DNA from: Massilia sp.
Lineage (GTDB): Bacteria; Pseudomonadota; Gammaproteobacteria; Burkholderiales; Burkholderiaceae_D
Direction of reading: 5' to 3'
Length of the DNA stretch: 33,806 bases
Assembly (NCBI GenBank): GCA_025359245.1
Contig: JANYGW010000096.1
Span: forward strand, 1-33,806
The notes below the pieces were generated by a model that worked only from the letters and a program-made list of their open reading frames with translations, was not told the DNA's origin and ran no database searches. This document shows positions 12,484 to 26,829 of the stretch, piece after piece. How positions within the stretch are numbered: the stretch's first letter is position 1; the number at the start of each line of letters is the position of its first letter. The position numbers and the translations under genes are program-made.

Positions 12484-12489
12484 AAGCAA

Positions 12490-12518
12490 ATTGTAGGTGC
12501 ATTATGATTGAAAATCAA
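12490..12518 (-). promoter_or_regulatory. Promoter of brnT-brnA
   Basis: Minus strand: TTGATT (12518-12513), a 17-base spacer, TACAAT (12495-12490), then six bases to the ATG at 12483. Spacing and -10 match sigma-70 well. The first base of the transcript is predicted at or next to the start codon. Confidence 0.6.
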
Positions 12519-12535
12519 GGCAAACTGTAGATGCA
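12492..12535. promoter_or_regulatory. Twin direct repeats, probable BrnA operator
   Basis: tgtaggtgca (12492-12501) and tgtagatgca (12526-12535) are direct repeats with one mismatch, 34 bases apart (about three helical turns). One overlaps the -10 element and the other lies upstream of the -35 element. This arrangement suits a ribbon-helix-helix antitoxin repressing its own operon. Confidence 0.5.
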
Positions 12536-12615
12536 CTTGGAGCTCTGCCTGAGGCAGCGAACGCCTGAGATTGGGGCCGAGGATCTGTGCCGACAAAGTC
12601 CTTGCGGTGCTGGCG

Positions 12616-12933
12616 CTAGCGTAAAACGTGCCCACTAAAGAAGGCCCAATGCAAGGCGCCAAACACGACACCGAGAAGTATCAGCACCTTCTGGCCCATC
12701 GGAATGTGCGCCCACGGGATCTGCTCGGAGCCATATTTTGCAAGGCTTTCGGCCTTACTTAACGGATAGATCATCATCGACAAACCGAGGCAAGCAAAAA
12801 ACGGAAAGAGAAAGCTGGCCTTCTCGGAGTAGCGGCCCTCAACAAGAACGGAATACCAGTTAAGCGCCGTGCCGCCGGCGCCAATTGCGAAGATCAGAAG
12901 GCCAAGAAGTCGTGATTTGGTGTTGGGAGACAC
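12616..12933 (-). CDS. Small hypothetical membrane protein
   Basis: 105 residues with three likely membrane segments: about 9-27 (LLGLLIFAIGAGGTALNW), 40-58 (ASFLFPFFACLGLSMMIYPL) and 82-100 (VLILLGVVFGALHWAFF). I do not recognise the family. No domain or catalytic motif is apparent. It lies between the BrnTA promoter and another orphan gene, in a patch of small unrelated genes. The charged MSPNTKSR start followed at once by a membrane helix is consistent with a real integral membrane protein. Confidence 0.6.
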   Translation of the reverse strand: MSPNTKSRLLGLLIFAIGAGGTALNWYSVLVEGRYSEKASFLFPFFACLGLSMMIYPLSKAESLAKYGSEQIPWAHIPMGQKVLILLGVVFGALHWAFFSGHVLR

Positions 12934-12975
12934 AGCGGCCTTTCAAGTTATAACGAGCCTGCGGTCCACTGAGAA

Positions 12976-13356
12976 CTACAGTTCGCCTTGACGCTTAAGC
13001 ACCACGCTGGGCGATTGAACCTCGACCGCCGGCCCCGTGCAAACGCGGACGCATTTCATGTATTTGTCTTCGCAGACGCGGGTGCGCTCCATCCGCCGGC
13101 TCTCGAAATCGCGCCGTTCAGCGGCCCGCACGTCGATTGAACGGCCCCTGGCATCGCCTGAATAGCGTATGTGGGGAAGTGCTTCATTCATCATCGCGAG
13201 CGGACTGTTTTCTTTTTTGTCCTCACGCTGCGCAAAGTCGCGGCATTCGCGCTTGTCGTCCGCGCAGCCGGGCTGGCAGGTGCTTGCGGCAGCACTGCAT
13301 GTGCCACTCGCAAGGAATCCCAACAACAGTGAAAAAAGAACCGTGAAATTTTTCAT
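12976..13356 (-). CDS. Small exported cysteine-containing hypothetical protein
   Basis: 126 residues. A Sec signal peptide (MKNFTVLFSLLLGFLASGTCSAAA) is followed by a mature part with cysteines in CQPGCADDKRECRDF and VCEDKYMKCVRVC, which could form two or three disulphides in the periplasm. The LASGTC stretch is not a proper lipobox because Thr precedes Cys. The middle is charged and helical (ERRDFESRRMERTRVCEDKYMKC). I do not recognise it and assign no function. It follows no operon partner closely. Confidence 0.6.
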   Translation of the reverse strand: MKNFTVLFSLLLGFLASGTCSAAASTCQPGCADDKRECRDFAQREDKKENSPLAMMNEALPHIRYSGDARGRSIDVRAAERRDFESRRMERTRVCEDKYMKCVRVCTGPAVEVQSPSVVLKRQGEL

Positions 13357-13724
13357 AAACTAAAATTGAACAGAGTCGCCTCTTCATGCGTTAACAAATT
13401 GTTGCTACCTAAGCGAGAGTTTTCCCACCCGCTGCCATATTTTCATCCGTATTCAAGCGCCTACGCTGCGGTGCCGTTACGGATCACTACACTGGCAGAA
13501 GGCAAGCTGGCGCTGGCCGGCACTGACGCTCTGGTGAGCGGCTGCCCCGGCGGTTCACTGGCGTTGCCTTTTACGTAAGGATGTTCATAGTGCCAGAGGA
13601 GGGGGAAGAGTGCCACCATTTTCGGATGGCGGAAGTTGCGCATGCGCACTAGCAACAGGCTTTTGATCTGGAAAGAACATGACGTGAGCGGCTGGCCGCG
13701 CGAAAATTTTGATGGGGCCGAGGC
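13357..13724. other. Gene-poor stretch with possible gene remnant
   Basis: No convincing complete gene in 368 bases. A minus-strand frame ending at 13461 has GC-rich third positions over its last 33 or so codons (ASEPPGQPLTRASVPASA), which could be the tail of a decayed gene, but it has no credible start, no recognised domain and no neighbour to support it. Confidence 0.3.
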
Positions 13725-14006
13725 TCAGCGCGAGTTGCGAGACTTTCCTGGAGGTCGCAGCACGTGCTCTCGAGTGGCGAGTGCTCCCTTCACTTCGACA
13801 ATCGCTCTTGACCATTCGGAACTCGACTTGAAGAGAATGCCAACGACGTGCTCTACCTCTCCCGGAGACAGATCGGACGCGCCTAAGGACTCCTCGCACA
13901 TCCGCAGACGCTCGAGCCTTGCCAGAAGTGCCCTGGTTGGCATTGCGTGCAGGTCGACGCTCGTCAATTGGGCTACGGCGCGAACAATTCCAGTACGTTT
14001 CTTCAT
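13725..14006 (-). CDS. Conserved small hypothetical protein
   Basis: 93 residues, no signal peptide or membrane segment. The segment DLHAMPTRALLARLERLRMCEESL followed by EVEHVVGILFKSSSEWSRAIVEVKGALATREHV looks, from memory, like a family of short helical bacterial proteins of unknown function. The MPTRALLARL core and the REHV end are the recognisable parts. The overlapping plus-strand frame and other minus-strand frames lack such character. No ribosome site is obvious before the ATG. Function unknown. Confidence 0.5.
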   Translation of the reverse strand: MKKRTGIVRAVAQLTSVDLHAMPTRALLARLERLRMCEESLGASDLSPGEVEHVVGILFKSSSEWSRAIVEVKGALATREHVLRPPGKSRNSR

Positions 14007-14111
14007 GCGATGGTCAACGATGAATTCTTGTGCGAACGTAGCGCGGCGTATGGGACGGCGCCTCGCCGGGCCATGCTGCTTTACCTTGCTCGGAGAGCCC
14101 GGATGCCAACT

Positions 14112-14594
14112 TCATTGCGGGTCCCGCACACCCACTCGTGACATCAAATCCAACGTCGAGTTGAGCGTCAGACCTTCTGTCGCCGACGCGCACGCGAAGC
14201 CCCCGATCGATTTTCCCTGCTTCTCCACATCAATGCTCGCCGGACCGGCGAGTGGCTCATAAAGGGTGTATTGGTATTCACCGTTTCGAAAGCTCAACGA
14301 CGCAGAACTTCCAAAGGTTTTCAAAGAAAACAGCCCTTTCGGATGGCTAGGTTTGGCAGGATAGATCAACTCCAGATGCCCCCCCTTCATGACGCGATAC
14401 TGCATGTAGCCGGCGGAAGCACTGAGATCGTTCGACGCGCAAACCGCATAGCGCTTGTGCCCCGCAGAGCAAGCCCATATCTCCTGCTCCGATTTAGTAC
14501 AGAGCGAGCCTTCAGCAAATGCCGCATTGCTGAGCAATAGAGCGAAAGTAAATGGGAGAACATAGTTCAACGCGGTAGTGACAAATGACGTCAT
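14112..14594 (-). CDS. Exported hypothetical protein
   Basis: 160 residues starting at the ATG at 14594, where AAGGG lies about 7 bases upstream; an earlier in-frame ATG at 14627 would put a hydrophilic leader before the signal peptide. The signal peptide ends near SNAAFA-EGS. The mature part is beta-rich (YMQYRVMKGGHLELIY, LFSLKTFGSSASLSFRNGEYQYTLYEP) with four cysteines, including LCTKSEQEIWACSAGHKRYAVCAS. Its pattern resembles small periplasmic proteins annotated only as hypothetical. No catalytic motif was recognised. Confidence 0.6.
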   Translation of the reverse strand: MTSFVTTALNYVLPFTFALLLSNAAFAEGSLCTKSEQEIWACSAGHKRYAVCASNDLSASAGYMQYRVMKGGHLELIYPAKPSHPKGLFSLKTFGSSASLSFRNGEYQYTLYEPLAGPASIDVEKQGKSIGGFACASATEGLTLNSTLDLMSRVGVRDPQ

Positions 14595-14746
14595 ACAGGA
14601 ACCCTTTTTGTGCGGCCCAACGTTCAAAATAACTGCCTGCCTGAGCGCGCAACAAAGCTACAGGCCTGTTGGCTACAGGTAGGGCCAAGACAGAAGCCTG
14701 CACCGCACACCGGCCGGTCCGCTTGAGTGCTGGGTTGGACGAACCG

Positions 14747-15061
14747 TCATTGCCGTACTACCTGTGACGCCAGCACGAGAAAACATGATATCCCAGCGAT
14801 AGATTCGATGGACCAAGGCTTCATTGTATTCACTCGAAACAAATTGCGCCCAAGTTCGTCGGTCAATTCGGCTTCAACCTCGCACCTGATAGCGCCCAGC
14901 TGGGGATATTCACTATTTGAACAGAGGTCATCAGAGCTGACGATAGGCACTTTTTCGATGAAAACGTGTGCCTCCCCCAGTGCATCGACTAGGCGGCATT
15001 CAACCAACCCAGGAAAATGGTCGTCGACGAATCGCTCAATTCGAACGGAAATGATGGTCAA
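14747..15061 (-). CDS. Conserved hypothetical protein
   Basis: 104 residues, soluble. The run VECRLVDALGEAHVFIEKVPIVSSDDL with SEYPQLGAIRCEVEAE and PWSIESIAG looks, from memory, like a widespread family of about 100-residue proteins of unknown function. The only available start is a TTG at 15061 with no good Shine-Dalgarno, so translation may be weak or start differently. It stands alone, with gaps of over 100 bases on both sides. Confidence 0.55.
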   Translation of the reverse strand: MTIISVRIERFVDDHFPGLVECRLVDALGEAHVFIEKVPIVSSDDLCSNSEYPQLGAIRCEVEAELTDELGRNLFRVNTMKPWSIESIAGISCFLVLASQVVRQ

Positions 15062-15395
15062 GATTTTAAGAGGCTCAACGTTAAGTGTGCGTTACTTTCA
15101 ACGCAATATTCGGACAAAGTATGACGCATGACCCGGCGCCCATCAAAAAACTTCCCTGGCAAAGTCCCCATGTTTTCCAATATCACTTCTTAAAAAGGAG
15201 AAGAAGCGTTGCGTCTGACAGACCACGGAAGTTGCTCGAACAGGTACACGATCAGGTGCCCGTATTCAACTACAGAATCGGAACTGGCGCTCCTCGATCA
15301 AAGAGAACGCGCACTTACACGACCGCATGAGCAGACCGCGCGGCACACTCAAGTACGTGGCGCGCCTGACGCAAAATCCCAGCAGCACCTGCGAA
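15062..15395. other. Intergenic stretch without a supported gene
   Basis: 334 bases. Short overlapping frames exist on both strands but none has a domain, consistent codon bias and start signal together. AAAAAGGAGAAGAAG at about 15193-15207 resembles a ribosome site before a TTG at 15209, yet the 64-codon frame that follows looks random. I see no hairpin terminator or promoter I would defend. Confidence 0.4.
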
Positions 15396-16016
15396 TTACA
15401 TAACGCGCTTGTAACCGCGGCGCACCTGCTCGCGGTCGCCGAAATCGTAGTGCCACCATTCGCTGCTGATGCCGGCAAATCCAGCCTGCGCCATCGCATC
15501 TCTCAGCAGCTGGCGATGGCCGATCTGCATCTGCGTGATCTCGCCGCGCACGAGCAACTCCTGCTCCATGCCCGGCTGCGAACGCTCGGTCAGGTCGTCA
15601 AAGCCGGTACCCATGTCGAGCTCATTGCCGCGTTCATCGAGCAGCGTGATATCGAGTGCCATGCCGAACGAATGGATCGAGCCGCGCACCGGTTCGGCCA
15701 GGTACATCTGCAGTCCGGTCCCTTCCAGCGCAGCCCACAATTGTTCCTGCACCCGCTGCGGACGCACCGCGTCGAGGATCAGCGCCGTGCAACCTGGCCG
15801 CCGCAGCGCCAGCCACGCCACCACCTGTTCCAGCGCGGCGGCCGCGTCGCGGTGCAGCCAGGCGCAGTCGAATGGCGAATACAAATCACGTCCGACAAAA
15901 TTATGCGGCGTCGCGTAACGCAAATCGATGGCAATCCCGGCGATCGTCGACAAGTGCCGGAAGTCTGCGCACGCGCCGATATTCTCGCTGGTCAGCACCT
16001 GGCTCACGCGAGGCAT
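15396..16016 (-). CDS. ddpX: D-alanyl-D-alanine dipeptidase (VanX/DdpX type)
   Basis: 206 residues counted from the ATG at 16016. Peptidase M15D zinc enzyme that hydrolyses the dipeptide D-Ala-D-Ala. The zinc motif SIHSFGMALD gives His115 and Asp122; EWWHYDF gives the catalytic Glu186 and third ligand His189; Arg85 (DAVRPQ) matches the conserved arginine. Spacing agrees with VanX. No signal peptide, so cytoplasmic. The start overlaps the end of the lysR gene by 13 bases, indicating coupled translation; the longer frame upstream lies entirely within lysR. As the last gene of a peptidoglycan-salvage operon it would use D-Ala-D-Ala as a nutrient; vancomycin resistance is not implied because vanA/vanH partners are absent here. 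Confidence 0.9.
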   Translation of the reverse strand: MPRVSQVLTSENIGACADFRHLSTIAGIAIDLRYATPHNFVGRDLYSPFDCAWLHRDAAAALEQVVAWLALRRPGCTALILDAVRPQRVQEQLWAALEGTGLQMYLAEPVRGSIHSFGMALDITLLDERGNELDMGTGFDDLTERSQPGMEQELLVRGEITQMQIGHRQLLRDAMAQAGFAGISSEWWHYDFGDREQVRRGYKRVM

Positions 16017-16897
16017 CTCCTGGCCACCTGGCCGATGCTGCTGGCCAGCACGCGCGCTCCGTGCGACAGCGGCGCGTGGTTCGCCGTCAGCGGGAACAGC
16101 TGAACCGGAATGGCAGGCGCCCATGGACGGCGCTGCACCTTGTCGTCCTGCGCCGCCGACGCGCTGAACGGATCGACCACCGCCATCCCGATCCCCGCTT
16201 CGACCAGCGCGCGGGCGATCTGGCAGGTCTGCACCACCGTGCCAAACATCGGATGCACGCCTTGCTCTTCGCAGGCGGCCACCACCAGCTCGCCCAGCGC
16301 GTCATCGTCGGCTTGGCCGATCAGCGCGCCGCTCAAACCGTCCGCGCCGACCGGCTGCCCGGCTTCGGCATCGCTCCAGCTGCCGCGCGGCGCCAGCACC
16401 GTCATGACGCCCTCGGCGATCGGCTCGGCCAGGATGCCAGGATGGCGCGGGTCCTGCAGCGACAGCGCCAGGTCGGCTTCGCCAAGGCGCAGCGTGTTGA
16501 CGATTTCGCTGGTGTGGTGGGTCGCCAGTTCACAGCGCGTCTGCGGAAAGTCGCGTCGCCACAGGCTCATTGCGGCGGGCATCACGTTGACGGCAATGGT
16601 CGGCGTCGCCACCAGCCGCACAGTTTCCACCGCGCGTTCCTTGAGGCTGGCGGCCAGGCGCCGGATGCCCTGCAAGTCGCGATTGAGTTTTTCGGTTTCA
16701 ATGAACAGGCGGTGCGCCTCGGGGCGCGGAACCAGCTTGCCGCGCACCCGTTCAAACAGCAGCATCCCCAGTTGCAGTTCGGCGTGCTGCAGCACCTTGG
16801 TCACCGCCGGCTGCGAAATGTGCAGCACCTGGGCGGCGCCGCTGATTGTCCCTACCTGCATGACCGCGTGGAATACCTCGATATGGCGCAGGCGCAT
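16004..16897 (-). CDS. LysR-family transcriptional regulator
   Basis: 297 residues from the ATG at 16897, which has AAGGAG 8 bases upstream (an in-frame start at 16918 lies before this site). The N-terminal winged helix-turn-helix is MRLRHIEVFHAVMQVGTISGAAQVLHISQPAVTKVLQHAE, followed by a LysR effector domain (VRLVATPTIAVNVMPAAM to the end). It starts 4 bases after the amidase stop and overlaps ddpX, so it is embedded inside the operon rather than divergent, which is unusual for a LysR gene. It could control ddpX, the operon or D-amino-acid genes elsewhere. AmpR identity was considered but not supported. Confidence 0.88.
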   Translation of the reverse strand: MRLRHIEVFHAVMQVGTISGAAQVLHISQPAVTKVLQHAELQLGMLLFERVRGKLVPRPEAHRLFIETEKLNRDLQGIRRLAASLKERAVETVRLVATPTIAVNVMPAAMSLWRRDFPQTRCELATHHTSEIVNTLRLGEADLALSLQDPRHPGILAEPIAEGVMTVLAPRGSWSDAEAGQPVGADGLSGALIGQADDDALGELVVAACEEQGVHPMFGTVVQTCQIARALVEAGIGMAVVDPFSASAAQDDKVQRRPWAPAIPVQLFPLTANHAPLSHGARVLASSIGQVARRCLA

Positions 16898-16901
16898 CGC
16901 C

Positions 16902-17699
16902 TCACTCCTTCTTGACAACGGCGGTCAGCGCGTCCAGCAGGGCCGCGCTCTCGGCGTCGGGTGTTCCATCGATGGTGGCGGGGCGGTACTTCATCTGGAA
17001 CGCAGCGAGCACCGAGCGGGTGGGCGTATCGAGCTCGCCGTTCAGCGGCACCAGGTAGCCGATCAGCGCCAGCTTCTGCTGGAACCAGGTCACATCGGGC
17101 AGCTGCAGATCGTACTGCGGCCGCGCCGCAGCGACCTTGGCGCCGTCCGGCCACAGCACCAGTCCTTGCTGCGCCAGCTGGATCCACGGGAACATCGGCC
17201 CCGGATCCTGCTTGCGGATTGGCGCCACATCGACGTGGCCAACCACGTTCTCGGGCGGGATGTGGTGGCGCGCCACGATGTCCTTGATTAGCACGATCAG
17301 GCGGTCGATCTGGGCCTGCGGGAACGGATACCAGATGCGCCCATCCGGCCCGTTGGTGAAGCCGGGGTTGACGATTTCGATGCCGATCGAGCTGGCGTTC
17401 AACTGCGTATAGCCCTTCCAGTACGATACGCCGGCGTGGTTGGCCTGTTGCGTTTCATCGACCAGGCCATACACCACCGGCACCGCGTCGTCGGTCAGCA
17501 GGTAGTGCGCGCTGACGACCTGCTCGGTCAGTATCTTGAGCGATGACGGCTTGTCGCTGACGGTGTAGTGCAGCACCAGGAACTTGACCCGGCTGCTCTG
17601 CCCCTTGGCCGTATACGTGCGGTCGATCTGTGGCGTGGTGTCGACGGTGGCGCAGCCGCTCAGCAACGCGATCAGCAAGGTGGCAAACAGGATTTTCAT
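16902..17699 (-). CDS. amiD: N-acetylmuramoyl-L-alanine amidase, AmiD-type lipoprotein
   Basis: 265 residues. Lipobox LSGC puts the acylated Cys at 16, so it is a lipoprotein, probably of the outer membrane (Ala follows Cys, no Asp retention signal). The Amidase_2 domain has zinc ligands His44 (VLHYT), His155 (VGHVDVAP) and Asp165 (KQDPGP), plus Glu108 (GIEIV). A C-terminal peptidoglycan-binding-like domain (about 205-260) has the FQQKLALIGYLVPLNGELD and FQMKYRP helices, as in E. coli AmiD. The enzyme cleaves stem peptides from MurNAc, including 1,6-anhydro-MurNAc. It is 14 bases downstream of the kinase gene and 4 bases upstream of lysR. Assignment firm. Confidence 0.92.
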   Translation of the reverse strand: MKILFATLLIALLSGCATVDTTPQIDRTYTAKGQSSRVKFLVLHYTVSDKPSSLKILTEQVVSAHYLLTDDAVPVVYGLVDETQQANHAGVSYWKGYTQLNASSIGIEIVNPGFTNGPDGRIWYPFPQAQIDRLIVLIKDIVARHHIPPENVVGHVDVAPIRKQDPGPMFPWIQLAQQGLVLWPDGAKVAAARPQYDLQLPDVTWFQQKLALIGYLVPLNGELDTPTRSVLAAFQMKYRPATIDGTPDAESAALLDALTAVVKKE

Positions 17700-17713
17700 G
17701 GTCGTGGGTCGTT

Positions 17714-18646
17714 TCAGTTGGGTGCGCGCGCGGCGATCCGTGCCGCTGCATGATGGGCCTGACCGGTCGCTTGCGTCAAGCTAGTCGCGTCCGGCAGCGC
17801 GGCACGCATCGCGGCACGCATCGCGGCAAGGATGGCCGGATGCAGTTCGGCGGCGCGCCCGGCCAGCACCACCGGCCGCGCGCCGAAGCGCTCGACCAGC
17901 GCCCGCGCCAGCCGCGCCAGCTCGCGTCCGGCCTCGGCCAGGATGGCGGCAGCGACCGGATCGGCAGCGGCGCTGGCCGCGACCGCCAGCGCCAGCTTGC
18001 CCACCGCGCCTCGTTCCTGGCCGTAGATGAACTGGCGCGACAGGGCCCAGTCGTCGCCGCCGATCTGCGCGAACACCGCATGCGCCATCGGCGAAGCGCG
18101 CCAGCGCCCCGGCTCTTCATCCTCGTTGCGCCAAATGTGGCGCAACGCCTCGCGCGCGATCCAGAATCCGCCGCCGCCATCGTCGAGCATGACGCCGCGC
18201 CCGCCGGCCCGGTGGAACTGGCCGGCGGCGTCGATGTAAGCGCCGATCGAGCCGGTGCCGGCATAGACCAGGTAGCCCTGGCCCGGTGCGAAGCTGGCCA
18301 GGTAGGAGATCTCGATGTCATTGCACAGCGTGACCGCGCGCAGCGGCACGGACAACAATCCGGCCAGCCAGCGCTGCAACTGGTCGCCGTCGCCGCCGAA
18401 GCCGGTCAGGCCGGCCTGGATGCGCTGCGGCTGCCCGTGTCCGAGCACGGCCCGGGCCAGCGCGCGGAAGGTCGCATGCACGCTGTCGCGCCCGGCCGCG
18501 CTGCCCATCTGCAGCACCGACATGCCGCCCACCGCGCCCTCGGCGTGAATCTGGCCGTCGCCTGACGCGAGCGCCCAGCGCGTGGACGTGCCGCCGGCAT
18601 CGATGCCGAGCCCGAGGCAGGCGCCAGGTTCTGCGTGCGGATCCAC
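17714..18646 (-). CDS. BadF/BadG-family amino-sugar kinase (GlcNAc/MurNAc kinase candidate)
   Basis: 310 residues from a GTG at 18646 that shares one base with the upstream stop codon (TAGTG), with AAGG 7 bases before it. The ASKHA ATPase fold shows phosphate-1 DAGGT (16-20), an ND pair with probable base Asp110, phosphate-2 GTGS (131-133 region) and GGRGVMLDDGGGGFWIARE (148-166). This is the GlcNAc-kinase branch of the BadF family. That branch includes MurK of Clostridium, which phosphorylates both MurNAc and GlcNAc. With murQ in the same operon and no other kinase here, a MurNAc-6-kinase role is attractive but is inference. A 12-base tandem repeat near the 3' end encodes a duplicated MRAA. 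Confidence 0.82.
   Translation of the reverse strand: MDPHAEPGACLGLGIDAGGTSTRWALASGDGQIHAEGAVGGMSVLQMGSAAGRDSVHATFRALARAVLGHGQPQRIQAGLTGFGGDGDQLQRWLAGLLSVPLRAVTLCNDIEISYLASFAPGQGYLVYAGTGSIGAYIDAAGQFHRAGGRGVMLDDGGGGFWIAREALRHIWRNEDEEPGRWRASPMAHAVFAQIGGDDWALSRQFIYGQERGAVGKLALAVAASAAADPVAAAILAEAGRELARLARALVERFGARPVVLAGRAAELHPAILAAMRAAMRAALPDATSLTQATGQAHHAAARIAARAPN
17801..17824. repeat. 12-base tandem repeat inside the kinase gene
   Basis: ggcacgcatcgc occurs twice in immediate succession, in frame, giving a duplicated Ala-Met-Arg-Ala stretch near the kinase C-terminus. Probably replication slippage; length may vary between strains. Confidence 0.8.
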
Positions 18647-20274
18647 TATTTGACCTTGGCGACCACCGGATCGGCCGCCTTCCAGACGGACACCCGTTCG
18701 CCTTCGTTGCCGAGCCGGTCGACCGCGCTCAGCACGACCGCGCTGACGTCGTCGGACACGCTCCAGTCGGTCCGGCTGGCCGGGATCACGGCGAAGCGCC
18801 ATTCGGCGCCATGGCGCGACCAGATCGCGTAGTGGACGTTGTCGCGGCCTGGCGTAATCTTAATGTTCAGTACGTTTACGCCATGCTTGGCGCTGACCGT
18901 CGGCGTGCCGGGGGCTTCGCTGCCCAGCCACGGCGTGGCCGGCACCAGCGCCGGCACGGCGTAATGGCCGGCCTTGAGCTGGTCGCTGATGCCCTGGCGG
19001 TTATCCATCAGGGCCGCGATACTGAAGTGCACGTGGCCGTCGGCCTTGGGCCGGCTGCGCGTCAAGCCGATCTGCTGCACGATCTCGTCGGCCGCGTAGG
19101 CCTTGGTCGGCGCGCCGATGCGACTGGTGTACAGCCCCGGCCAGATATGTCGGCCCTGGCGATTCTGCGCCAGCCAGTAGTCGAGCAGCACGCCGTAGGC
19201 TTGCGGCGCCTGGGCGATCGGCCAGTACAGCTGCGGCGACAGATAATCGAGCCAGCCGTTTTCGAGCCAGGTCTCGGCGTCGGCGTACAGCTTGTCGTAC
19301 TGGCTGAAACCGACGATGCCGGCCGGGCGCCGGTCGGGCCGGCCCAGGCCGAACGGGCTGATGCCGAAGCGCACCCAGCTTTTTTCGGCGTGGATGCCCT
19401 TGTACAGCGCTTCGATCAGCTGGTTGACGTTCTGGCGGCGCCAGTCGGCCTTGGCCAGTTTGCCGCCGCCGAACTGATAGCGCTGCCAGGACGGCTGGTC
19501 CGGAAAATCGAGTTCCGGCTTGCCGCCGCCCGCGCCATCGAGCGCGCCTTCCGGTCCGCCGCCCGCTTCGATCGGATACGGATAAAAATAATCGTCGATG
19601 TGGACGCCGTCGATGTCGTAGCGCTTGACGACATCGAGGATCACGGCCAGCGTCTGTTTCGACGCCGCTTCCTCGCCCGGATCCATCCACAGGAAGCGCC
19701 CGTAGGCCTTGACCGCCGACGGGTTGGTCTTCGAAATATGCGACGCCGACACGGGCGACTTGGCCGTCGCGTGGCGCGCCCGGTACGGATTGAACCAGGC
19801 GTGCAGCTCCAGCCCGCGCGCGTGCGCCTGGGCGATCCAGAACTTGAGCGGGTCATACCACGGCTGCGGCGCGCGGCCCTGCGCGCCGCTCAGGTATTCG
19901 GACCACGGTTCGATCTCGGACGCATAGATCGCGTCGGCGCTCGGGCGCACCTGCAGCACGATCGCGTTCAGGTTCATCGCCTTGGCACGGTCGAGGATGG
20001 CGATCGCCTCGGCCTGTTGCTGGGCCGCGCTCAGGTTCGATTTGCTGGGCCAGTCGATATTGGCCACGGTCGATACCCACGCGGCGCGAAACTCGCGCGG
20101 GGCGGGCGGCGGCGTCAGCTCGGTGCCGCCCGGCGTCGGCGGGGTATGCGGCAGCGGTGGCTTGTTGGCCACCGGCACGACCAGCGGCGCGACCGGGGTG
20201 CAACTGGCGACCAGGCCACCGAGCGTCAACACAGCGGCCAGCGCGAAGGCGCGTTTCTTCAAATTAGGCTGCAA
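18646..20274 (-). CDS. GHL10-type glycoside hydrolase lipoprotein (DigH/YngK-like)
   Basis: About 542 residues from a TTG at 20274, chosen because GAGGA stands six bases in front of it, whereas the in-frame TTG at 20280 abuts that ribosome site. Lipobox VASC places the acylated Cys at residue 25, followed by a Pro-rich linker (to about 60). The catalytic barrel has EFRAAWVSTVANIDWPS, NAIVLQVRPSADAIYAS, GLELHAWFNPYRA and DGVHIDDYFYPYP, all hallmarks of the glycosyl-hydrolase-like 10 family. E. coli DigH of this family cleaves peptide-free (denuded) peptidoglycan glycans. A small C-terminal Fn3-like segment ends the protein. It starts 13 bases after the nagX-like stop and overlaps the kinase start. 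Substrate here is inferred. Confidence 0.87.
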   Translation of the reverse strand: MQPNLKKRAFALAAVLTLGGLVASCTPVAPLVVPVANKPPLPHTPPTPGGTELTPPPAPREFRAAWVSTVANIDWPSKSNLSAAQQQAEAIAILDRAKAMNLNAIVLQVRPSADAIYASEIEPWSEYLSGAQGRAPQPWYDPLKFWIAQAHARGLELHAWFNPYRARHATAKSPVSASHISKTNPSAVKAYGRFLWMDPGEEAASKQTLAVILDVVKRYDIDGVHIDDYFYPYPIEAGGGPEGALDGAGGGKPELDFPDQPSWQRYQFGGGKLAKADWRRQNVNQLIEALYKGIHAEKSWVRFGISPFGLGRPDRRPAGIVGFSQYDKLYADAETWLENGWLDYLSPQLYWPIAQAPQAYGVLLDYWLAQNRQGRHIWPGLYTSRIGAPTKAYAADEIVQQIGLTRSRPKADGHVHFSIAALMDNRQGISDQLKAGHYAVPALVPATPWLGSEAPGTPTVSAKHGVNVLNIKITPGRDNVHYAIWSRHGAEWRFAVIPASRTDWSVSDDVSAVVLSAVDRLGNEGERVSVWKAADPVVAKVK

Positions 20275-20287
20275 AACCAATCCTCAA

Positions 20288-21430
20288 TTAAACTTTGACG
20301 ACCCATTTATTGCGCCACATAAACCATGCGACGGCGAACATGGCCGCGTTGAACAACAGAGCATAAAGCAAAGAGCTGTTCACTGGGCCGATGTCCAGTG
20401 CGCGCAGCGGCGCATACGACAATGCGCCGAGCGAGATGGTACTGCCATCCGCCTGGGAAAATTTGATAAATCCGAGCATTTTTGCCACTAGCGCGGAGAA
20501 GGCGAAGATGAACAGCGCATTCATGCCGTAGATGATGAACGGCAAGCTCCAGCGCGCCGCGATAGCCCGCACCTGCGCATGGGGATTGGCGTCCAGCAGC
20601 CAGTAAAACGCCGCAAACAGCAGCAGCGCCCAGCCGCTCATGAACAGGCAGAACGAGGGCGTCCACAGGCTCTTGTTGATCGGCATGAGGATCACGTCGA
20701 GGATGGCGCCCAGCCACAGCAGCAGCAAACCGGCCAGCAGCATCCACACGGTTTTTTCCGCCTGGCCATGGCCCGACAGCAGCCAGCGCCCGGCCAGCAC
20801 GCCGATCAACTGGCTGCACACGGCCGGCAGGCTGCTGACCAGGCCTTCCGGATCCCAGGTCTTCGAATGCGACCACAGGTGGCCGTCAAGCAGCAACCGG
20901 TCGATATAAGCGCCAAAGTCCTTGCCCGGTTCGAGCACGCCGGCGCCGATGCCCGGCACCGGTACCCACAGCATCAGCACGCTGTAGAGGGCCAGCAGGG
21001 CGGCGATCCACGCCACTTGCGCGCGCCACGCGCAATACACGACGATGGGCGCAGCCAGCAGGGTGCACAGGGCAATGCGCTGCAGCACGCCCGGTATGCG
21101 CACCGCGCCAAAATTAAAGTGGGGAATCAGGTTCAGCGCGTAGCCGACCAGGAAGATCAGCCCGGCCCGCCTGGCCAGCTTGGCCAGCAGCGCCGGCTTG
21201 TGGGCGCCGGCCTCGGCCAGCCGCCCCAGCGACAACGCCATCGACACGCCGCCGATGAACAGGAAGAACGGAAAGATCCAGTCGGTGAAGGTCCAGCCGT
21301 TCCACTCTGCGTGTTCCAGCTGGCGGTACAGATGGGACCAGTCGCCCGGATTATTCACCAGCACCATGGCGGCGATGGTGAACCCGCGGAACGCGTCCAG
21401 CGACGAGAGGCGCACTGGGATGCTGCTCAT
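20288..21430 (-). CDS. nagX: NagX-like membrane acyltransferase (HGSNAT/DUF5009 family)
   Basis: 380 residues, about ten membrane segments. The N-terminus RLSSLDAFRGFTIAAMVLVNNPG and the loop HAEWNGWTFTDWIFPFFLFIGGVSMAL are diagnostic of the bacterial relatives of heparan-alpha-glucosaminide N-acetyltransferase, with His40 equivalent to the histidine used in acetyl transfer. Proteins of this type, called NagX in Xanthomonas and Shewanella, occur in GlcNAc or chitin gene clusters. It would modify amino sugars across the inner membrane using cytoplasmic acetyl-CoA, but its true substrate is unknown. The ATG overlaps the stop of the transporter gene by four bases (ATGA). Confidence 0.85.
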   Translation of the reverse strand: MSSIPVRLSSLDAFRGFTIAAMVLVNNPGDWSHLYRQLEHAEWNGWTFTDWIFPFFLFIGGVSMALSLGRLAEAGAHKPALLAKLARRAGLIFLVGYALNLIPHFNFGAVRIPGVLQRIALCTLLAAPIVVYCAWRAQVAWIAALLALYSVLMLWVPVPGIGAGVLEPGKDFGAYIDRLLLDGHLWSHSKTWDPEGLVSSLPAVCSQLIGVLAGRWLLSGHGQAEKTVWMLLAGLLLLWLGAILDVILMPINKSLWTPSFCLFMSGWALLLFAAFYWLLDANPHAQVRAIAARWSLPFIIYGMNALFIFAFSALVAKMLGFIKFSQADGSTISLGALSYAPLRALDIGPVNSSLLYALLFNAAMFAVAWFMWRNKWVVKV

Positions 21431-22770
21431 TTGGCGGGCTTTTTCCCGAATTCCGGATCAATCTTGATCAGTGCGGCCATCCCAAATGCGGGCAAGGTCA
21501 TCAGGCAGACGTAGACGAAGAAATTCTCATAGCCCAAGTATTCCTGGATGCGTCCGCTGTACATACCCGGCACCATCATTCCCAAGGCCATCAAGCCGGT
21601 GCAGATCGCGTAATGGGCGGTCTTGTGTTCACCGTCGGCGAGCATGATCATGTACATCAGCAGCGCGGCAAAGCCGAAGCCGTAGCCGAACTGTTCAAGA
21701 GCAATGCAGCCTGAGATCACGGCAATGCCGTGTGTCAGATGGATGGACAGGAACGAAAGCGGACCCTGCACTTCCCATGTGAATATCGGCTCGATGTTGT
21801 GCGGCAGCTGGTGAGACAGGAACACGAATACCAGGTCCGGCACGTGCACCGCAAATACCATCAGCCACAAGGCGCGCTTGAGGCCAATTTTCGAAATCAC
21901 GTAGCCGCCTAGCAAGCCGCCCAAGGTCAGGAACAACACCCCGACCCCGCCATATACCTGGCCCACTTGCGCCGTCGACAGGCCCAGGCCGCCTTGCGCG
22001 AGCGGATCCTTCATGAAGGGGATCACCATCTTGATCAGCTGCGATTCACCGAGGCGGAAGGTCAGGATGAAAGCGAGCGCCACCAGGATGTCCTTGCGCT
22101 TGAAAAACGACCAGATAGTCGCGAAGTATTCCTGGATGTAGTTGTCACCCTGAACCACGGCGTGGTCAGCTGCGGGCCTGGGCAGGATGAAGAAGTGATA
22201 CGCCCACATCGACAGGAACATGCCGCCGGCCACGACCATTACCACGGACCAGGCGTAGCCAACATCGTGGGTGCGCTCCGTCAGCTTGCCGGCCAGGTAG
22301 ACCAGGCCGCCCTGGCCGGCAATATTGGCAAGGCGATAGAAGGTACTGCGCACGCCCACGAACGCGGCCTGTTCGTGCTGCGGAAGGGCCAGCATGTAGA
22401 AGCCGTCAGCCGCAATATCATGCGTGGCTGAACTGAACGCCATCAGCCAGAATATGGCCAGGCTGATCTGAAAAAACGAGGGCAACTGGGTCGTCAGTGC
22501 CACGGAAGCGAGCGCCGCGCCGATGATGAACTGCATGCTCACCGTCCACCAGCGCTTGGTACGGAACATGTCGATGAAAGGCGACCAGAAGGGCTTGATC
22601 ACCCACGGCAAATACAACCAGCTGGTATAGAAGGCGAAGTTATCATTGCTGATACCGAAGTCCTTGTACATGACGCTGGCCAGCACCATGACAGCGACGT
22701 ACGGAATAGCCTGGGCAAAGTACAGGGTGGGGATCCACGACCACGGATTGCTTGCGTTCGGTTTTTGCAT
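21427..22770 (-). CDS. MFS transporter, AmpG-like
   Basis: 447 residues from the ATG at 22770 (the in-frame TTG at 22788 lacks a ribosome site). About 12 membrane segments; SWIPTLYFAQAIPYVAVMVLASVMYKD at the start, WLMAFSSATHDIAADGFYM (about 115-133) and EQFGYGFGFAALLMYMI near the C-terminus are characteristic of the AmpG/acetyl-CoA-transporter branch. AmpG imports GlcNAc-anhydro-MurNAc muropeptides. Given murQ upstream and nagX downstream, the cargo could be muropeptide, GlcNAc-MurNAc disaccharide or free amino sugar. The 40-base gap after murQ is short. Family good, cargo inferred. Confidence 0.85.
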   Translation of the reverse strand: MQKPNASNPWSWIPTLYFAQAIPYVAVMVLASVMYKDFGISNDNFAFYTSWLYLPWVIKPFWSPFIDMFRTKRWWTVSMQFIIGAALASVALTTQLPSFFQISLAIFWLMAFSSATHDIAADGFYMLALPQHEQAAFVGVRSTFYRLANIAGQGGLVYLAGKLTERTHDVGYAWSVVMVVAGGMFLSMWAYHFFILPRPAADHAVVQGDNYIQEYFATIWSFFKRKDILVALAFILTFRLGESQLIKMVIPFMKDPLAQGGLGLSTAQVGQVYGGVGVLFLTLGGLLGGYVISKIGLKRALWLMVFAVHVPDLVFVFLSHQLPHNIEPIFTWEVQGPLSFLSIHLTHGIAVISGCIALEQFGYGFGFAALLMYMIMLADGEHKTAHYAICTGLMALGMMVPGMYSGRIQEYLGYENFFVYVCLMTLPAFGMAALIKIDPEFGKKPAK

Positions 22771-22810
22771 TGATACTTTCGCACTCAACGCAGTACCGGG
22801 AACTGTTCCG

Positions 22811-23692
22811 CTATGTCGCTAGCGCCTGGCGCACGCTGCCGCGCGACGCCTCGAGCAGCCCCCTGGCCTGGTCGATACTGGTTTTTTTGGTCAGGGCCAC
22901 GATGGCGACCTTGACGTGGAAATCGCATTGTTCCAGCACGTCGCGCGCTGCTTGTTCATCGGCGCCCGTGGCAAACATCGTCAGGCGGACCGCGCGCAGC
23001 ACCAGCTTGGCGTTGGTTGGCTTCAAGTCTACCATCAGGTTGCCATAAACCTTGTTCAAACGCACCATCAACGCGCTCGAAAAGGCATTCAGTGCAATTT
23101 TCTGCGAGGTGCCCGCTTTCAGGCGCGTGCTGCCCGAGATCACTTCGGAACCGGTGTCGAGGGTGATGCCGATATCGGCCTCGGCCACCACCGGCGCGTC
23201 GACATTGTTGGCGAAGCCGATCGCCAGCGCGCCGGCCTCGCGCGCGGCGCGCAGGGCGCCCAGCACATACGGTGTGGCGCCCGACGCGGCCAGCAGCAGC
23301 ACCACGTCGTTGGCGCCGGGATTGTACTGGCGCAGGTCGGCCGCGCCTTGGGCGGCATCGTCCTCGGCGCCTTCGACGGCGGTGAACATGGCGTCGTTGC
23401 CCCCGGCCAGCAGGGCCAGCGCGCGCTCATGCGGCCAGGAAAACGTGGGGTACAGTTCGACGCTGTCGAGCACGCCGAGCCGGCCCGAGGTGCCGGCACC
23501 GACATAGATCAGGCGCCCGCCCGCCTCGATGCGCGCCAGTGCGGCGCCGACCGCGCGTGCGATGGCCGGCGCGGCGGCGCGAACGGCGTTGACGGCATTG
23601 ACCTGGTCATCGATCAGCACGGCGACCAGTTCTGCGGTCGGGTACAGGTCGAGATCGGCGTGGCGTTGGTCTGGCGTTTCGGTTTTTAACAT
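22811..23692 (-). CDS. murQ: N-acetylmuramic acid 6-phosphate etherase
   Basis: 293 residues, cytoplasmic. MurQ cleaves the D-lactyl ether of MurNAc-6-P to yield GlcNAc-6-P and D-lactate. The SIS-domain signature VGAGTSGRLGVLDSVEL holds catalytic Glu79; the VEGAEDD segment gives Glu110; STRLKAGTSQKIALNAFSSALMVRLNKVYGNLMVDLKPTNAKL is the conserved second half. The C-terminal helical part (DEQAARDVLEQCDFHVKVAIVAL) is complete. The gene follows gntR by 44 bases on the same strand. The Shine-Dalgarno is weak. Identification is firm. Confidence 0.96.
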   Translation of the reverse strand: MLKTETPDQRHADLDLYPTAELVAVLIDDQVNAVNAVRAAAPAIARAVGAALARIEAGGRLIYVGAGTSGRLGVLDSVELYPTFSWPHERALALLAGGNDAMFTAVEGAEDDAAQGAADLRQYNPGANDVVLLLAASGATPYVLGALRAAREAGALAIGFANNVDAPVVAEADIGITLDTGSEVISGSTRLKAGTSQKIALNAFSSALMVRLNKVYGNLMVDLKPTNAKLVLRAVRLTMFATGADEQAARDVLEQCDFHVKVAIVALTKKTSIDQARGLLEASRGSVRQALAT

Positions 23693-23736
23693 CGCTGTCT
23701 GCTTTGTTCCGATACCACCAGTGTACTGCTAAAGCA

Positions 23737-24477
23737 TCAAGTGACGCGGCGCATCTCTGCAACGAAATCGTAATGATCGCTGCGGCAATACGAATGGGTC
23801 AGCTCAACCGCCTGGCCCGACTCGAGGTAGCCAACGCGGGTGATGAACAGGACTGCCTGTCCGACCGGCACGCCAAGCTGGCCGGCCAGGGTCGCCGAGG
23901 CATTCATCGCACGGATATGCTGCAGCGCGCGCACCGGCATGTGACCGCTCAGGGCCAGGTGTTCATACAGGGAATTGCCGACCGCTTCGGGACGCGCCAG
24001 CACGGCGGCCGGGATCACGCTGACCTCGTAGGCCATGACGATGTCGTCGGCCATGCGCAGCCGTTCCAGGCGCGCCACACGGGTATTCGGCGACAGGCCC
24101 AGGCTCAGCTGTTCATCGGCGGATGCCACCACCAGCGAGCGGCTGAGCCACTGCGAGCCGGGCTTGTAGCCGCGCTGCTGCAATTGTTCGGAGAAGCTGG
24201 ACAGGTTCGACAGGGGCTGCTCGATGCGCGGCGCCACATAGTTGCCCGAGCCGCGGCGGCGCACCACCAGGCCCTGTTCGACCAGCTGGTCGATGGCCTT
24301 GCGGGCGGTTACGCGCGACACGTCGAGCTGCTCGGACAGCAGCCGCTCGGACGGCAGCGCCTGATCAACCTGGTAGCGGCCTTCGCGCACATCCAGGATC
24401 AGCTTGCGCGCCACCTGCATGTAGAGTGGTGAATTATCGTTCAAATCGGCTTTGAATTCGGTGCTGGTATCGCTCAT
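23737..24477 (-). CDS. GntR-family (HutC/UTRA) regulator, NagR-like
   Basis: 246 residues from the ATG at 24477. The winged helix-turn-helix (SPLYMQVARKLILDVREGRYQVDQALPSERLLSEQLDVSRVTARKAIDQL, about 16-65, with RRRGSGNYV wing at 73-81) is followed by a UTRA effector domain (about 95-240: LSNLSSFSEQLQQRGYKPGSQWL... ITRVGYLESGQAVELTHSYCRSDHYDF). This is the NagR/DasR/MurR-like architecture that senses phosphorylated amino sugars. As the first gene of the salvage operon it is the likely repressor, released by GlcNAc-6-P or MurNAc-6-P. The longer frame upstream has no supporting ribosome site. Confidence 0.9.
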   Translation of the reverse strand: MSDTSTEFKADLNDNSPLYMQVARKLILDVREGRYQVDQALPSERLLSEQLDVSRVTARKAIDQLVEQGLVVRRRGSGNYVAPRIEQPLSNLSSFSEQLQQRGYKPGSQWLSRSLVVASADEQLSLGLSPNTRVARLERLRMADDIVMAYEVSVIPAAVLARPEAVGNSLYEHLALSGHMPVRALQHIRAMNASATLAGQLGVPVGQAVLFITRVGYLESGQAVELTHSYCRSDHYDFVAEMRRVT

Positions 24478-24777
24478 TCCGTTCCGCTCTGGTTCATTGT
24501 GCTGCACTGTCCCGCTCTGCGGGCGACAGGTTGGAGTGTAATCTGAATGGGGCGCCGCACGGGACATGCGGCCATCAAATTCACGGAAACCGTGCCCGCA
24601 TTCTACTGCGCGGCTTGGCCTTGAAAGCCGTGTTTTTGGTCAATCCTGCAAAAAAGAGTGCTTTTGGGGCGATGAAACCGTTCCAAACACCGGTTCACAG
24701 GCCGCGCTGGCACGCAGGCGGTATGCTGCTGATAGGGGCCAAGTTCAAAGGGAACACATGAATATGGAAAGCGCATC
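24478..24777. promoter_or_regulatory. Divergent control region between the salvage operon and the DadA-like gene
   Basis: 300 bases between divergent starts. It holds inverted repeats ctgtcccgc/gcgggcgacag (24507-24529, imperfect, within the gntR leader), cacggaaaccgtg (24582-24594) and aaccg/cggtt (24676-24680 and 24691-24695). Any of these could be a regulator site or an RNA hairpin. I could not match a textbook sigma-70 promoter or a clean GntR/UTRA operator on either strand. Confidence 0.45.
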
Positions 24778-25995
24778 GTGCGCCAGGTAATCGTCATCGG
24801 CGGCGGCGTGATCGGCCTGGCGTCGGCCTGGTGGCTGCTCGAAGCCGGCTTCGGCGTGACGCTGCTCGAAAGCGCGCCGGACGTGGCCACCGGGGCCAGT
24901 TTTTGCAACGGCGGGCAGCTCAGCTACCGCTATGTGGCGCCGCTGGCCGACGCCGGCGTGCCGTTCAAGGCGCTGCAGTGGATGCTGCAATCGAATGGAC
25001 CGCTGCGCTTCCGGCCCGAGGCCGACCTGCGCCAGTGGCGCTGGCTGGCCCAGTTCCTGGCGCACTGCCGCGCCGATATCAACCGCAAGACCACCATCCA
25101 ACTGCTTGAACTGGGCGAATTGAGCCGGGTCGCGATGGCGCAGCTGGACATGCCGAAGGCGCTGTTTGCATGGCGCGAGGCCGGCAAGCTGGTGGTGTAC
25201 CGCTCGCAAAAAAGCCTCGATGCGGCCCTGGCGCGGCCCGATGCCCGCAATGCGCGCGAGGTGCTGTCGGCGGCCGGGTGCGTGGCGCTCGAGCCTGCGC
25301 TGGCCGCGGCCGAAGACGCCCTCGCCGGCGGCATCTTCAACGGCGGCGAGGCGGTGGCCGACTGCCACGCCTTCTGCGAAGCGCTGGCGGTGCGGCTGGC
25401 CGCGCATGCGCGCTTCAACGGCATCGTCCATGCCGAGGCCAGCGGCTTCGTTTGCGCGGGCGGACAGATACGGGGCCTGGCCACCAGCGCCGGCGTGATG
25501 AACGCGGACGCCTTCGTGCTGGCGGCTGGCATCCAGAGCCGCACGCTGGCGGCCAGCGCCGGCATCTATCTGCCGCTGTATCCGATCAAGGGCTACAGCC
25601 TGTCCGCGCCGATCCGCGCCACCGACCTGGGGCCCGAGATCAGCGTGACCGATTTCGAGCGCAAGGTGCTGTATGCGCGCATCGGCGACCAGTTGCGGGT
25701 CGCCGCGATGGCCGATATCGTCGGCGAGGATACCCGCATCGATCCGCAAAGGGTGGCCGCGCTGCTGCGCCAGGTGCGCGCGACCATGCCGCGCGCGGCC
25801 GACTATGATCAGCTTTCCACCTGGGCCGGGCTGCGGCCGGCCACGCCGGGCGGCGCGCCGATCATCGGCGCCACGCGCTATCCCAAGCTGTGGCTGAACG
25901 TGGGGCATGGCGCGCTCGGCTTCACGCTGGCGTGCGGCTCGGCGCGCATGCTGGCCGATGCAATGAGCGGCAAGCCGGCGCCGCCACGATCGTAA
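24778..25995 (+). CDS. FAD-dependent D-amino acid dehydrogenase-like (DadA family)
   Basis: 405 residues from a GTG at 24778 with GGAAAG six bases upstream; nearby ATGs at 24758 and 24764 are out of frame. The N-terminal FAD fold is VIVIGGGVIGLASAWWLLEAG with Gly8/Gly10/Gly13 and acidic Glu31. FCNGGQLSYRYVAPLADAG and the C-terminal STWAGLRPATPGGAPIIGATRYPKLWLNVGHGALGFTLACGSARML are typical of DadA, which oxidises D-Ala and other D-amino acids to keto acids, feeding electrons to quinone. It diverges from the salvage operon, whose DdpX would release D-Ala, giving a plausible metabolic link. Other D-amino acids or opine-like substrates cannot be excluded. Confidence 0.85.
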   Translation: MRQVIVIGGGVIGLASAWWLLEAGFGVTLLESAPDVATGASFCNGGQLSYRYVAPLADAGVPFKALQWMLQSNGPLRFRPEADLRQWRWLAQFLAHCRADINRKTTIQLLELGELSRVAMAQLDMPKALFAWREAGKLVVYRSQKSLDAALARPDARNAREVLSAAGCVALEPALAAAEDALAGGIFNGGEAVADCHAFCEALAVRLAAHARFNGIVHAEASGFVCAGGQIRGLATSAGVMNADAFVLAAGIQSRTLAASAGIYLPLYPIKGYSLSAPIRATDLGPEISVTDFERKVLYARIGDQLRVAAMADIVGEDTRIDPQRVAALLRQVRATMPRAADYDQLSTWAGLRPATPGGAPIIGATRYPKLWLNVGHGALGFTLACGSARMLADAMSGKPAPPRS

Positions 25996-26052
25996 TTCGG
26001 TCACTCGGCCCGGCTGGCGGTATCATTGCATTTTTCCCGTCAAGAAAAACGC

Positions 26053-26829
26053 ATGTTTAAAAAATACGCAGCACGCCTCCTTCTGTGCTCCCTGTTTGGG
26101 TGGAGCGCGGCCCAGGCCGCCATGCCGGTCTACGGCTTCGTCGTCAAGAACAGTTATCCGCATGACGCGACCGCGTTCACGGAGGGCCTGGTTTACAAGG
26201 ATGGCTTCCTGTACGAGAGCACCGGCATGAAAGGCCAGTCCAGCATCCGCAAGGTCGAGCTGGCCACCGGCAAAATCCTGCAGAAGAAGGACCTCCCGGC
26301 CGAGCTGTTCGGCGAGGGCATCGCCGACATCGATGGCAACCTGATCGGGCTGACCTGGACCACGGAGCTGGGCTTCGTGTTCGACCTCAAGACATTCCAG
26401 CTGAAAAAGCGCTTCAGCTACACCGGCGAAGGGTGGGGGCTGACCAGCCACGACCGCCAGCTGTATATGAGCGACGGCACGTCCTTCATCCGCGTGCTGA
26501 ATCCGGCATTGAAGGAAGTGCGGCGCTTCCAGGTGACGGCCGACGGCACGCCGATCGACCGCCTCAACGAGCTCGAATGGGTCGACGGCGAATTGTTCGC
26601 CAATGTATGGGGCACCGATGTGATCGCCCGGATCGACCCGGCGTCCGGCCACGTGACCGGCTGGATCGACCTGCGCACGCTGCTGGTGCCGGCATTGCGC
26701 GGCACCACCAACGTCGACGCGGTCCTGAACGGCATCGCCTACGACAGCAAGCAGCACCGGCTGTTTGTGACCGGCAAGCTCTGGCCAAAGCTGTTCGAGA
26801 TCGAGCTGGTCAGGCTGCAGCCGCGCTGA
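26053..26829 (+). CDS. Glutaminyl-peptide cyclotransferase, plant/bacterial type
   Basis: 258 residues from the ATG at 26053; an in-frame TTG at 26026 would add a charged leader. Signal peptide to about residue 22 (SAAQA-AMPVY), so exported. The five-bladed propeller family (glutamine cyclotransferase) is recognised by YPHDATAFTEGLVYKDGFLYESTGMKGQSSIRKVEL, FGEGIADI, LTWTTELGFVFD, LNELEWVDGELFANVWGTDVIARIDP and LNGIAYDSKQHRLFVTGKLWPKLFEI. It converts N-terminal glutamine of peptides to pyroglutamate. It seems to be a single-gene unit. Confidence in the family is high; the physiological substrate is unknown. Confidence 0.92.
   Translation: MFKKYAARLLLCSLFGWSAAQAAMPVYGFVVKNSYPHDATAFTEGLVYKDGFLYESTGMKGQSSIRKVELATGKILQKKDLPAELFGEGIADIDGNLIGLTWTTELGFVFDLKTFQLKKRFSYTGEGWGLTSHDRQLYMSDGTSFIRVLNPALKEVRRFQVTADGTPIDRLNELEWVDGELFANVWGTDVIARIDPASGHVTGWIDLRTLLVPALRGTTNVDAVLNGIAYDSKQHRLFVTGKLWPKLFEIELVRLQPR

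Follow-up and report, generated by a model that had tools for sequence, protein, structure and literature searches.

How far do genes for the breakdown of peptidoglycan that lie side by side in one genome make up a single pathway, and would that pathway recover the cell's own wall or feed on wall fragments from outside? The question is raised by a 33,806-nucleotide stretch of Massilia sp. DNA (GenBank assembly GCA_025359245.1, contig JANYGW010000096.1, positions 1 to 33,806; hereafter the window), on whose minus strand nine genes follow one another in the order gntR-murQ-AmpG-like major facilitator superfamily (MFS) permease-nagX-GHL10-BadF kinase-amiD-lysR-ddpX, with dadA divergent on the plus strand. 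We read the region as a muropeptide catabolic locus working by the full pathway proposed below, to which we give a probability of about 0.7.

The order was established from open reading frames (ORFs), family profiles and start codons. Beyond dadA, which encodes a D-amino-acid dehydrogenase (24778-25995, plus strand; NF001933, 425.8 bits against a cut-off of 383), the minus strand holds gntR, for a NagQ-like GntR/UTRA regulator (23737-24477; PF00392 and PF07702); murQ, for N-acetylmuramic acid (MurNAc)-6-phosphate etherase (22811-23692); the AmpG-like permease gene (21427-22770); nagX, for a NagX/HGSNAT-family membrane protein (20288-21430; PF07786); and the gene for a GHL10 (DigH/Cwp19-like) glycan-cleaving lipoprotein (18646-20274; PF02638, 195 bits). 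The GHL10 stop overlaps by one base the GTG start of a BadF-family sugar kinase gene, the product of which we propose to be a MurNAc kinase (17714-18646; PF01869). Next come amiD, for an AmiD/AmpDh2-like N-acetylmuramoyl-L-alanine amidase, a lipoprotein with a peptidoglycan-binding domain (16902-17699; PF01510 and PF01471); a lysR regulator gene (16004-16897; PF00126 and PF03466); and, overlapping it by 13 bases, ddpX, for an M15 D-Ala-D-Ala dipeptidase (15396-16016; PF01427, 104.5 bits). From gntR to ddpX, the intergenic spacings are 44, 40, -4, 13, -1, 14, 4 and -13 bases. A preliminary description of this DNA had claimed nine same-strand genes with one-, four- and 13-base overlaps and a divergent dadA, as the ORFs, families and measured gaps bear out, and its theme of cell-wall salvage is supported by the families and by the conserved order. 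Consensus scans of 15100-26100 gave promoter-like sites (1 against 1.4 expected) and terminator-like sites (7 against 7.6 expected) at chance level, and no Rfam element in the window exceeded its gathering score.

Gene-order conservation in Oxalobacteraceae, raised in the same description, was confirmed by a comparison of neighbourhoods: the complete nine genes, in the same order and on the same strand, are present in 14 of 34 other tabulated loci, 11 of them in genomes of the family and three (L070, L074 and L076) in records of Massilia and Telluria. The table includes a lone second NagX copy (L039) and two loci cut by contig ends (L037 and L043); it leaves out three loci equal in length to contigs of G108, G125 and G075 and taken as copies of them (L071, L073 and L084), loci with NagX or MurQ and at most a GntR-like match besides (L047-L050 and L063-L066), L118, and loci with NagX alone from a wider contig search. 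Among the loci measured, lysR adjoins ddpX in 17, and dadA, present in 19 (window counted), runs in the opposite direction in 18. A six-gene core, murQ-MFS-nagX-GHL10-kinase-amiD, is complete in three loci of another family, f22 (L054, L057 and L058), as well as in L075, from a Burkholderiales metagenome-assembled genome (MAG); the f38 loci have the core without amiD or the MFS gene, and L055 (f21) has murQ and GHL10 with dadA, lysR and ddpX. Some of these loci carry further genes: nagA with a nagB-like SIS gene (L054 and L059), a NagA-like amidohydrolase (L060), AnmK (L057), PF00144 serine hydrolases (L053, L054 and L059) and family-5 binding proteins (L046, L053, L054 and L055). The dadA-gntR interval holds a PF00144 gene in L036, a similar gene by eye in L031 and a similar-sized gap in other relatives; it is too small for such a gene in the window, L034, L040 and L045, and L051 has no gntR there.

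Of the family's 145 genomes, 40 have some match to NagX; of the 250 genomes from the order, 41 match murQ at an expect value (E) of 1e-3, many of these matches being weak and partial. Spread beyond Burkholderiales was rejected on 51 loci with NagX relatives, in which other operon genes occurred only in Massilia/Telluria, Roseateles, Mitsuaria and the MAGs L071 and L075. Beside NagX in Acidobacteria, Gemmatimonadota, Bacteroidota and other loci, some of them short stretches, no MurQ, MFS, GHL10, BadF or AmiD match was found at E 1e-5; L110, one of the NagX loci outside the Burkholderiales operon set, holds a weak GntR-like fragment.

The enzyme assignments are firmest for MurQ, which exceeds the cut-offs of NF003915 (361 bits against 168) and NF009222 (316.6 against 255), falls marginally below that of TIGR00274 (294.5 against 302) and matches solved MurQ structures at best with E 4.2e-74; E79 and E110, which we take to be the catalytic pair, are invariant in 22 aligned rows. 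AmiD has an Amidase_2 domain, a lipobox (LLSGC) and invariant H44, H155 and D165 (20 rows), presumably the zinc ligands, and is closest to AmpDh2 (4bpa; E 2.8e-90). The closest structure to the GHL10 protein is Cwp19 (5oq2; E 1.2e-74), whose Asp195/Asp196-Tyr197 correspond, by motif match rather than printed alignment, to D227/D228-Y229, invariant in 22 rows. DdpX belongs to the M15 family and retains its zinc and catalytic residues: H115, D122, E186 and H189, whose roles we assign after VanX, align to the D-Ala-D-Ala dipeptidase 1r44 and are invariant in 16 rows. That the operon MFS protein acts like AmpG is suggested by its genomic context and its solved relatives, all four of those found being AmpG/muropeptide permeases; in G075, a genome rated 100% complete, it is the only AmpG-family match. 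The PF22198 profile, a poorly chosen family, had no match in the window's genome.

For the BadF kinase, genomic context points to MurNAc as the substrate. Operon kinases (n = 19) and nag-cluster kinases (n = 4) form separate clades (support 100/100, the bootstrap not being quite settled), with the motif HRAGGRG or QRAGGRG in the former and REVGGWG in the latter; a hexokinase of S. tokodaii likewise has GGRG, so Arg150 is not diagnostic. A putative NagK structure matches the genome's own nag-cluster kinase at 6.4e-83 and the operon kinase at 9e-14. A model of the operon kinase (predicted local distance difference test (pLDDT) score 77.9) gave the S. tokodaii hexokinase as best Foldseek match (E 1.3e-16), followed by NagK (1.7e-13) and MurK (1.5e-9), so that for this protein structure comparison did not tell the two apart. 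In MurK, described as not identifiable by sequence analysis, MurNAc binding has been tied to residues 133-135 and 94 (PMC10465942). The position of MurK P134 is Gly in the operon kinase, with Arg150 adjacent (alignment through NagK), and the loop at 150-155 is modelled with pLDDT below 50; MurK-like room for the lactyl group looks open at the first position (133-135) and not at the second (94).

The cluster extends further than nine genes and dadA. It was rightly recognised as a cluster in the preliminary description and drawn too small, for ldcA, a binding-protein gene and the PBP4 gene also lie in the window and adjoin ddpX in relatives. In the window, ldcA encodes an S66 LD-carboxypeptidase with a twin-arginine translocation (Tat)-like signal, SRRVF (819-1874, minus strand; PF02016 and PF17676), and is followed by genes for a family-5 (oligopeptide-type) periplasmic binding protein (1923-3644, minus strand; PF00496, 204 bits), a Gate-domain membrane protein (3800-5038, plus strand; PF07670), which adjoins PBP4 in relatives, and PBP4 itself, an S13 D-Ala-D-Ala carboxypeptidase with a signal peptide (5048-6496, plus strand; PF02113, 255 bits), convergent with ddpX in relatives. 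This far side of the locus was compared in 12 relatives, all of which have the binding protein, PBP4 and the Gate gene next to ddpX (neighbouring stretches counted for Gate); ldcA is present in 11, and in the remaining one the stretch is cut off where the locus ends.

In all 12 relatives a match to a TonB-dependent receptor also separates the binding protein from ldcA; two of these receptors (931 and 947 residues) were confirmed with Pfam. Identity to the L135 copy is 68-100% in eight (L132 partial) and 43-44% in L126, L127, L136 and L137, and two receptor types are therefore possible. The window contains no such receptor, ldcA coming directly after the binding protein, and elsewhere in its genome, from an assembly 81.66% complete, the best match is 35% identical. 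L053 belongs to a different genus of the family and has, beside GHL10, a receptor of 72% identity, which independently ties the receptor to glycan genes. The Gate-domain and PBP4 pair (3800-6496 in the window) is kept in relatives, and we take it to parallel dacB-spmA-spmB of Bacillus subtilis. In the two relatives examined there, an M4 thermolysin-like protease with an Ig-like domain is encoded 1.4-2.3 kb past ldcA (L126:15751-18381 and L135:16159-18702); it could lyse prey, or be unrelated.

N-termini, judged by eye, divide the proteins between two predicted compartments. A twin-arginine N-terminus is present in all nine LdcA orthologues, so LdcA is predicted to be periplasmic; a lipobox is present in 7/7 AmiD and 7/7 GHL10 proteins, and a signal peptide is apparent in 5/5 PBP4 and 5/6 binding proteins and in none of six DdpX proteins. 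These signals place the trimming of stem peptides and glycan, as a prediction, in the periplasm, and sugar phosphorylation, MurQ, DdpX and DadA inside the cell.

In the pathway that we propose, for which we infer every substrate, transport direction, regulatory step and use as food, PBP4 and Tat-exported LdcA would trim and release stem peptides in the periplasm, and the AmpDh2-like lipoprotein AmiD would strip peptides from the glycan. DigH acts on denuded glycans (PMC12288456), and AmiD would thus make a DigH-type substrate for the GHL10 lipoprotein, which would cut it to disaccharides of N-acetylglucosamine (GlcNAc) and (anhydro)MurNAc. The AmpG-like permease would bring these in; NagZ, AnmK and a NagK-like kinase from other contigs would split and phosphorylate them, and the BadF kinase of the locus would phosphorylate free MurNAc. 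MurQ would convert MurNAc-6-phosphate to GlcNAc-6-phosphate and D-lactate, the former for NagA and NagB of a separate nag cluster, and NagX would re-acetylate de-N-acetylated sugars at the inner membrane or aid import. Peptides would be taken up through the binding protein, DdpX would split D-Ala-D-Ala, DadA would oxidise D-Ala, and the NagQ-like GntR would control the genes from murQ onward.

That control is suggested by a 16-base repeat, TTGGTATTACACTGGT, which occurs in exact form in the gntR-murQ interval of 14 of the 22 loci scanned, the window being one of the 22; L057 has none. It fits the TGGTATT direct repeats described for NagQ (PMC4494728), and the nag cluster on contig C107 of the window's genome has repeats of the same type with one mismatch. 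The intergenic repeat is likely an operator/promoter, and its position suggests gntR as a separate unit. The idea of one nine-gene operon thus holds in part: murQ to ddpX is likely a single transcript, and gntR, given the repeat, is probably transcribed apart from it in most relatives scanned. Contig C107 encodes, with a GntR to which that of the window is 59% identical, a NagK-like kinase, NagA, a NagB-like SIS protein, parts of an ATP-binding cassette (ABC) transporter, GH3/NagZ (208.5 bits, cut-off 207) and an AmpG-like MFS protein, and AnmK is on contig C213; AnmK matches were found in all 12 genomes searched. The preliminary description was right that nagZ, anmK and nagA lie outside the window. 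Its self-contained pathway falls with the same observation, since the MurQ product GlcNAc-6-phosphate needs NagA and NagB: nagA, the nagB-like SIS gene, nagZ, the nagK-like kinase gene and anmK are all on C107 or C213, and the window locus feeds a pathway continued there.

Several results weigh against this catabolic reading. Four proteins score below curated cut-offs and are therefore members of wider families rather than equivalogs: the MFS permease (TIGR00901, 172.6 bits against 350, a cut-off likewise missed by the operon MFS proteins of the relatives compared), NagX (NF046061, 181.1 against 480), DdpX (NF007557, 143.2 against an equivalog cut-off of 176) and the kinase when set against NagK (NF046058, 76 against 370). 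The window's genome has three AmpG-family MFS genes, two beyond the operon copy, and G070 and G181 encode an AmpG above the cut-off away from the locus. In the operon kinase, Asn109 precedes the catalytic Asp, as Asn does in GlcNAc kinases, the residue in MurK being Thr94. The window yielded no ABC permease gene to go with the binding protein. The window's own copy of the operator (23717-23732, minus strand) is eroded, with three mismatches against the 16-base repeat kept in relatives, and the repeat was not found between gntR and murQ of L045, a near relative. Genome-wide, near-matches to the repeat are in modest excess (72 against 40 in a reversed control, eight genomes), nine being in the window's genome and none inside the window; a NagQ regulon beyond these loci was not established. 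The locus is also patchily distributed: 16 of the 145 family genomes, its own included, match NagX strongly (E 7e-159 or better).

A housekeeping role, in which the products of the cell's own turnover are recovered for wall synthesis and signalling with no growth on external peptidoglycan, deserves serious consideration, even if we lean away from it. Caulobacter recycles its own wall through AmpG, AmiR and NagZ (PMC13046382), key enzymes of the locus have homologues in recycling, and the window is without the receptor of its relatives. That receptor nevertheless adjoins the block in every relative compared, which speaks for external substrates, as do the degradative nature of MurQ, DdpX and DadA by family knowledge and the patchiness of the locus across the family; the presence of two regulators, and of a nag cluster apart from the locus, hints at catabolism that is inducible.

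NagX may be a transmembrane amino-sugar acetyltransferase or a MurT-like transporter. If the latter, the MFS protein would carry muropeptides or disaccharides and the unit would be the equivalent of murTKQ plus ampG, which we regard as possible, though somewhat improbable. NagX is distantly related to TfMurT, yet the same source gives sugar re-acetylation as a possible role and fitness data consistent with transacetylation (PMC9007349), and H40, which aligns with the acetyl-carrying H297 of HGSNAT, is invariant in all 21 rows. NagF of S. maltophilia, which shares 35% identity with MurT, has a part in GlcNAc uptake (PMC13055268), and murT, murK and murQ lie together in Tannerella forsythia; the assignment of MurT to the sodium symporter superfamily, made in one paper, fits poorly with kinship to NagX. 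NagX is dispensable in G018, a genome that keeps murQ, the MFS gene and the kinase gene but gives no match to NagX. G070 has a second NagX copy, 74% identical, in locus L039, with no other operon genes within the surrounding 19.5 kb.

It is unlikely, on what we have, that the locus is one dedicated to living on the walls of other bacteria, a Gram-negative peptidoglycan utilisation locus whose intact form would combine a wall-fragment TonB receptor, periplasmic stripping that includes a Tat-exported LD-carboxypeptidase, NagX re-acetylation and a NagQ-paralogue regulator, the window being a reduced form that has lost the receptor. In such a locus, re-acetylation by NagX would make N-deacetylated wall, for example of Gram-positive bacteria, usable. 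The passages on peptidoglycan terms in a review of TonB receptors describe no peptidoglycan import (PMC11658791).

More doubtful still is a role of the BadF kinase as a further kinase for GlcNAc, with free MurNAc never arising and AnmK feeding MurQ from anhydro-MurNAc. The Asn before its catalytic Asp, the presence of AnmK throughout the genomes searched and a paper title that calls Cwp19, a GHL10 relative, a lytic transglycosylase would agree with that, but a NagK-like kinase is already encoded in the genome's nag cluster, and in relatives carrying it the operon kinase stays beside the muramate genes. Chance or mis-called ORFs are ruled out by the conservation of gene order among relatives.

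The remainder of the window holds further features. Between ddpX and PBP4 lies a GH64 beta-1,3-glucanase with CBM56 and CHB_HEX_C repeats, with a LacI regulator adjacent (6586-10047 and 10226-11287), a pair that G094 (L045 and L135) also has and that is absent from the other relatives checked. A stretch of about 4 kb, lower in GC content (52-61%) and with few ORFs, separates LacI from ddpX (11300-15390), where L045 has only about 560 bp, and contains an ORF for a BrnA-type antitoxin (11970-12383, minus strand). Beside dadA, a glutamine cyclotransferase (PF05096; 26026-26829) was not found in the 21 relatives' loci searched.

If our catabolic reading is true, bacteria of the Massilia group would own an inducible peptidoglycan-eating pathway, in soil where peptidoglycan is a large pool of carbon and nitrogen from dead cells, and the locus would offer candidates for steps that lack an assigned enzyme here: a wall-fragment TonB receptor, an LD-carboxypeptidase acting in the periplasm and, for NagX, a part in the metabolism of muramate. 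We take it to be a conserved locus of the Massilia group, probably for muropeptide catabolism, new in its arrangement and mostly known in its parts. No title or abstract start among the matches listed, in a search whose coverage mostly excludes subscription papers, described this gene set in Burkholderiales; the preliminary description's statement that no operon with exactly this set is known agrees with those matches, but it left unnamed a related nine-gene operon in T. forsythia.

That operon, Tanf_08345-08385, is the nearest described: its nine genes, including ampG-ybbC-murT-murK-murQ, are co-transcribed (PMC5388701, PMC7670621), and its AmpG imports GlcNAc-MurNAc and GlcNAc-anhydroMurNAc (PMC7670621). 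Both loci have an AmpG or AmpG-like permease, a MurT/NagX-related protein, a BadF kinase and MurQ. The T. forsythia operon handles external muropeptides. It differs in being regulated by GppX, in a MurNAc auxotroph, and in containing one gene resembling xanthan lyase, two for glycosyltransferases and one resembling LytB, while GHL10, AmiD, DdpX, DadA, GntR and LysR are not named in its legend. With the NagQ-controlled nag regulon of alpha- and betaproteobacteria, as far as its source describes it, the locus shares a GntR/HutC-type regulator and TGGTATT direct repeats, the nagA-nagB core being in the genome's own nag cluster; here the paralogous regulator sits beside muramate and peptide genes, not chitin or GlcNAc genes. 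The transacetylase NagX of Shewanella and others has the family and catalytic His in common with the window NagX, which scores below the curated cut-off and is encoded with murQ rather than chitin genes. DigH, which we take to be a GHL10 member, of E. coli and Cwp19 of C. difficile belong by sequence with the GHL10 protein, here a lipoprotein encoded beside the amidase that would supply it with denuded glycan. Murein recycling in E. coli uses AmpG, AmpD/AmiD, NagZ, AnmK, MurQ, LdcA and DdpX; the set of reactions is the same, here clustered and with a Tat-type LdcA and lipoprotein enzymes, from which peptide trimming is predicted, unlike in E. coli, to take place in the periplasm.

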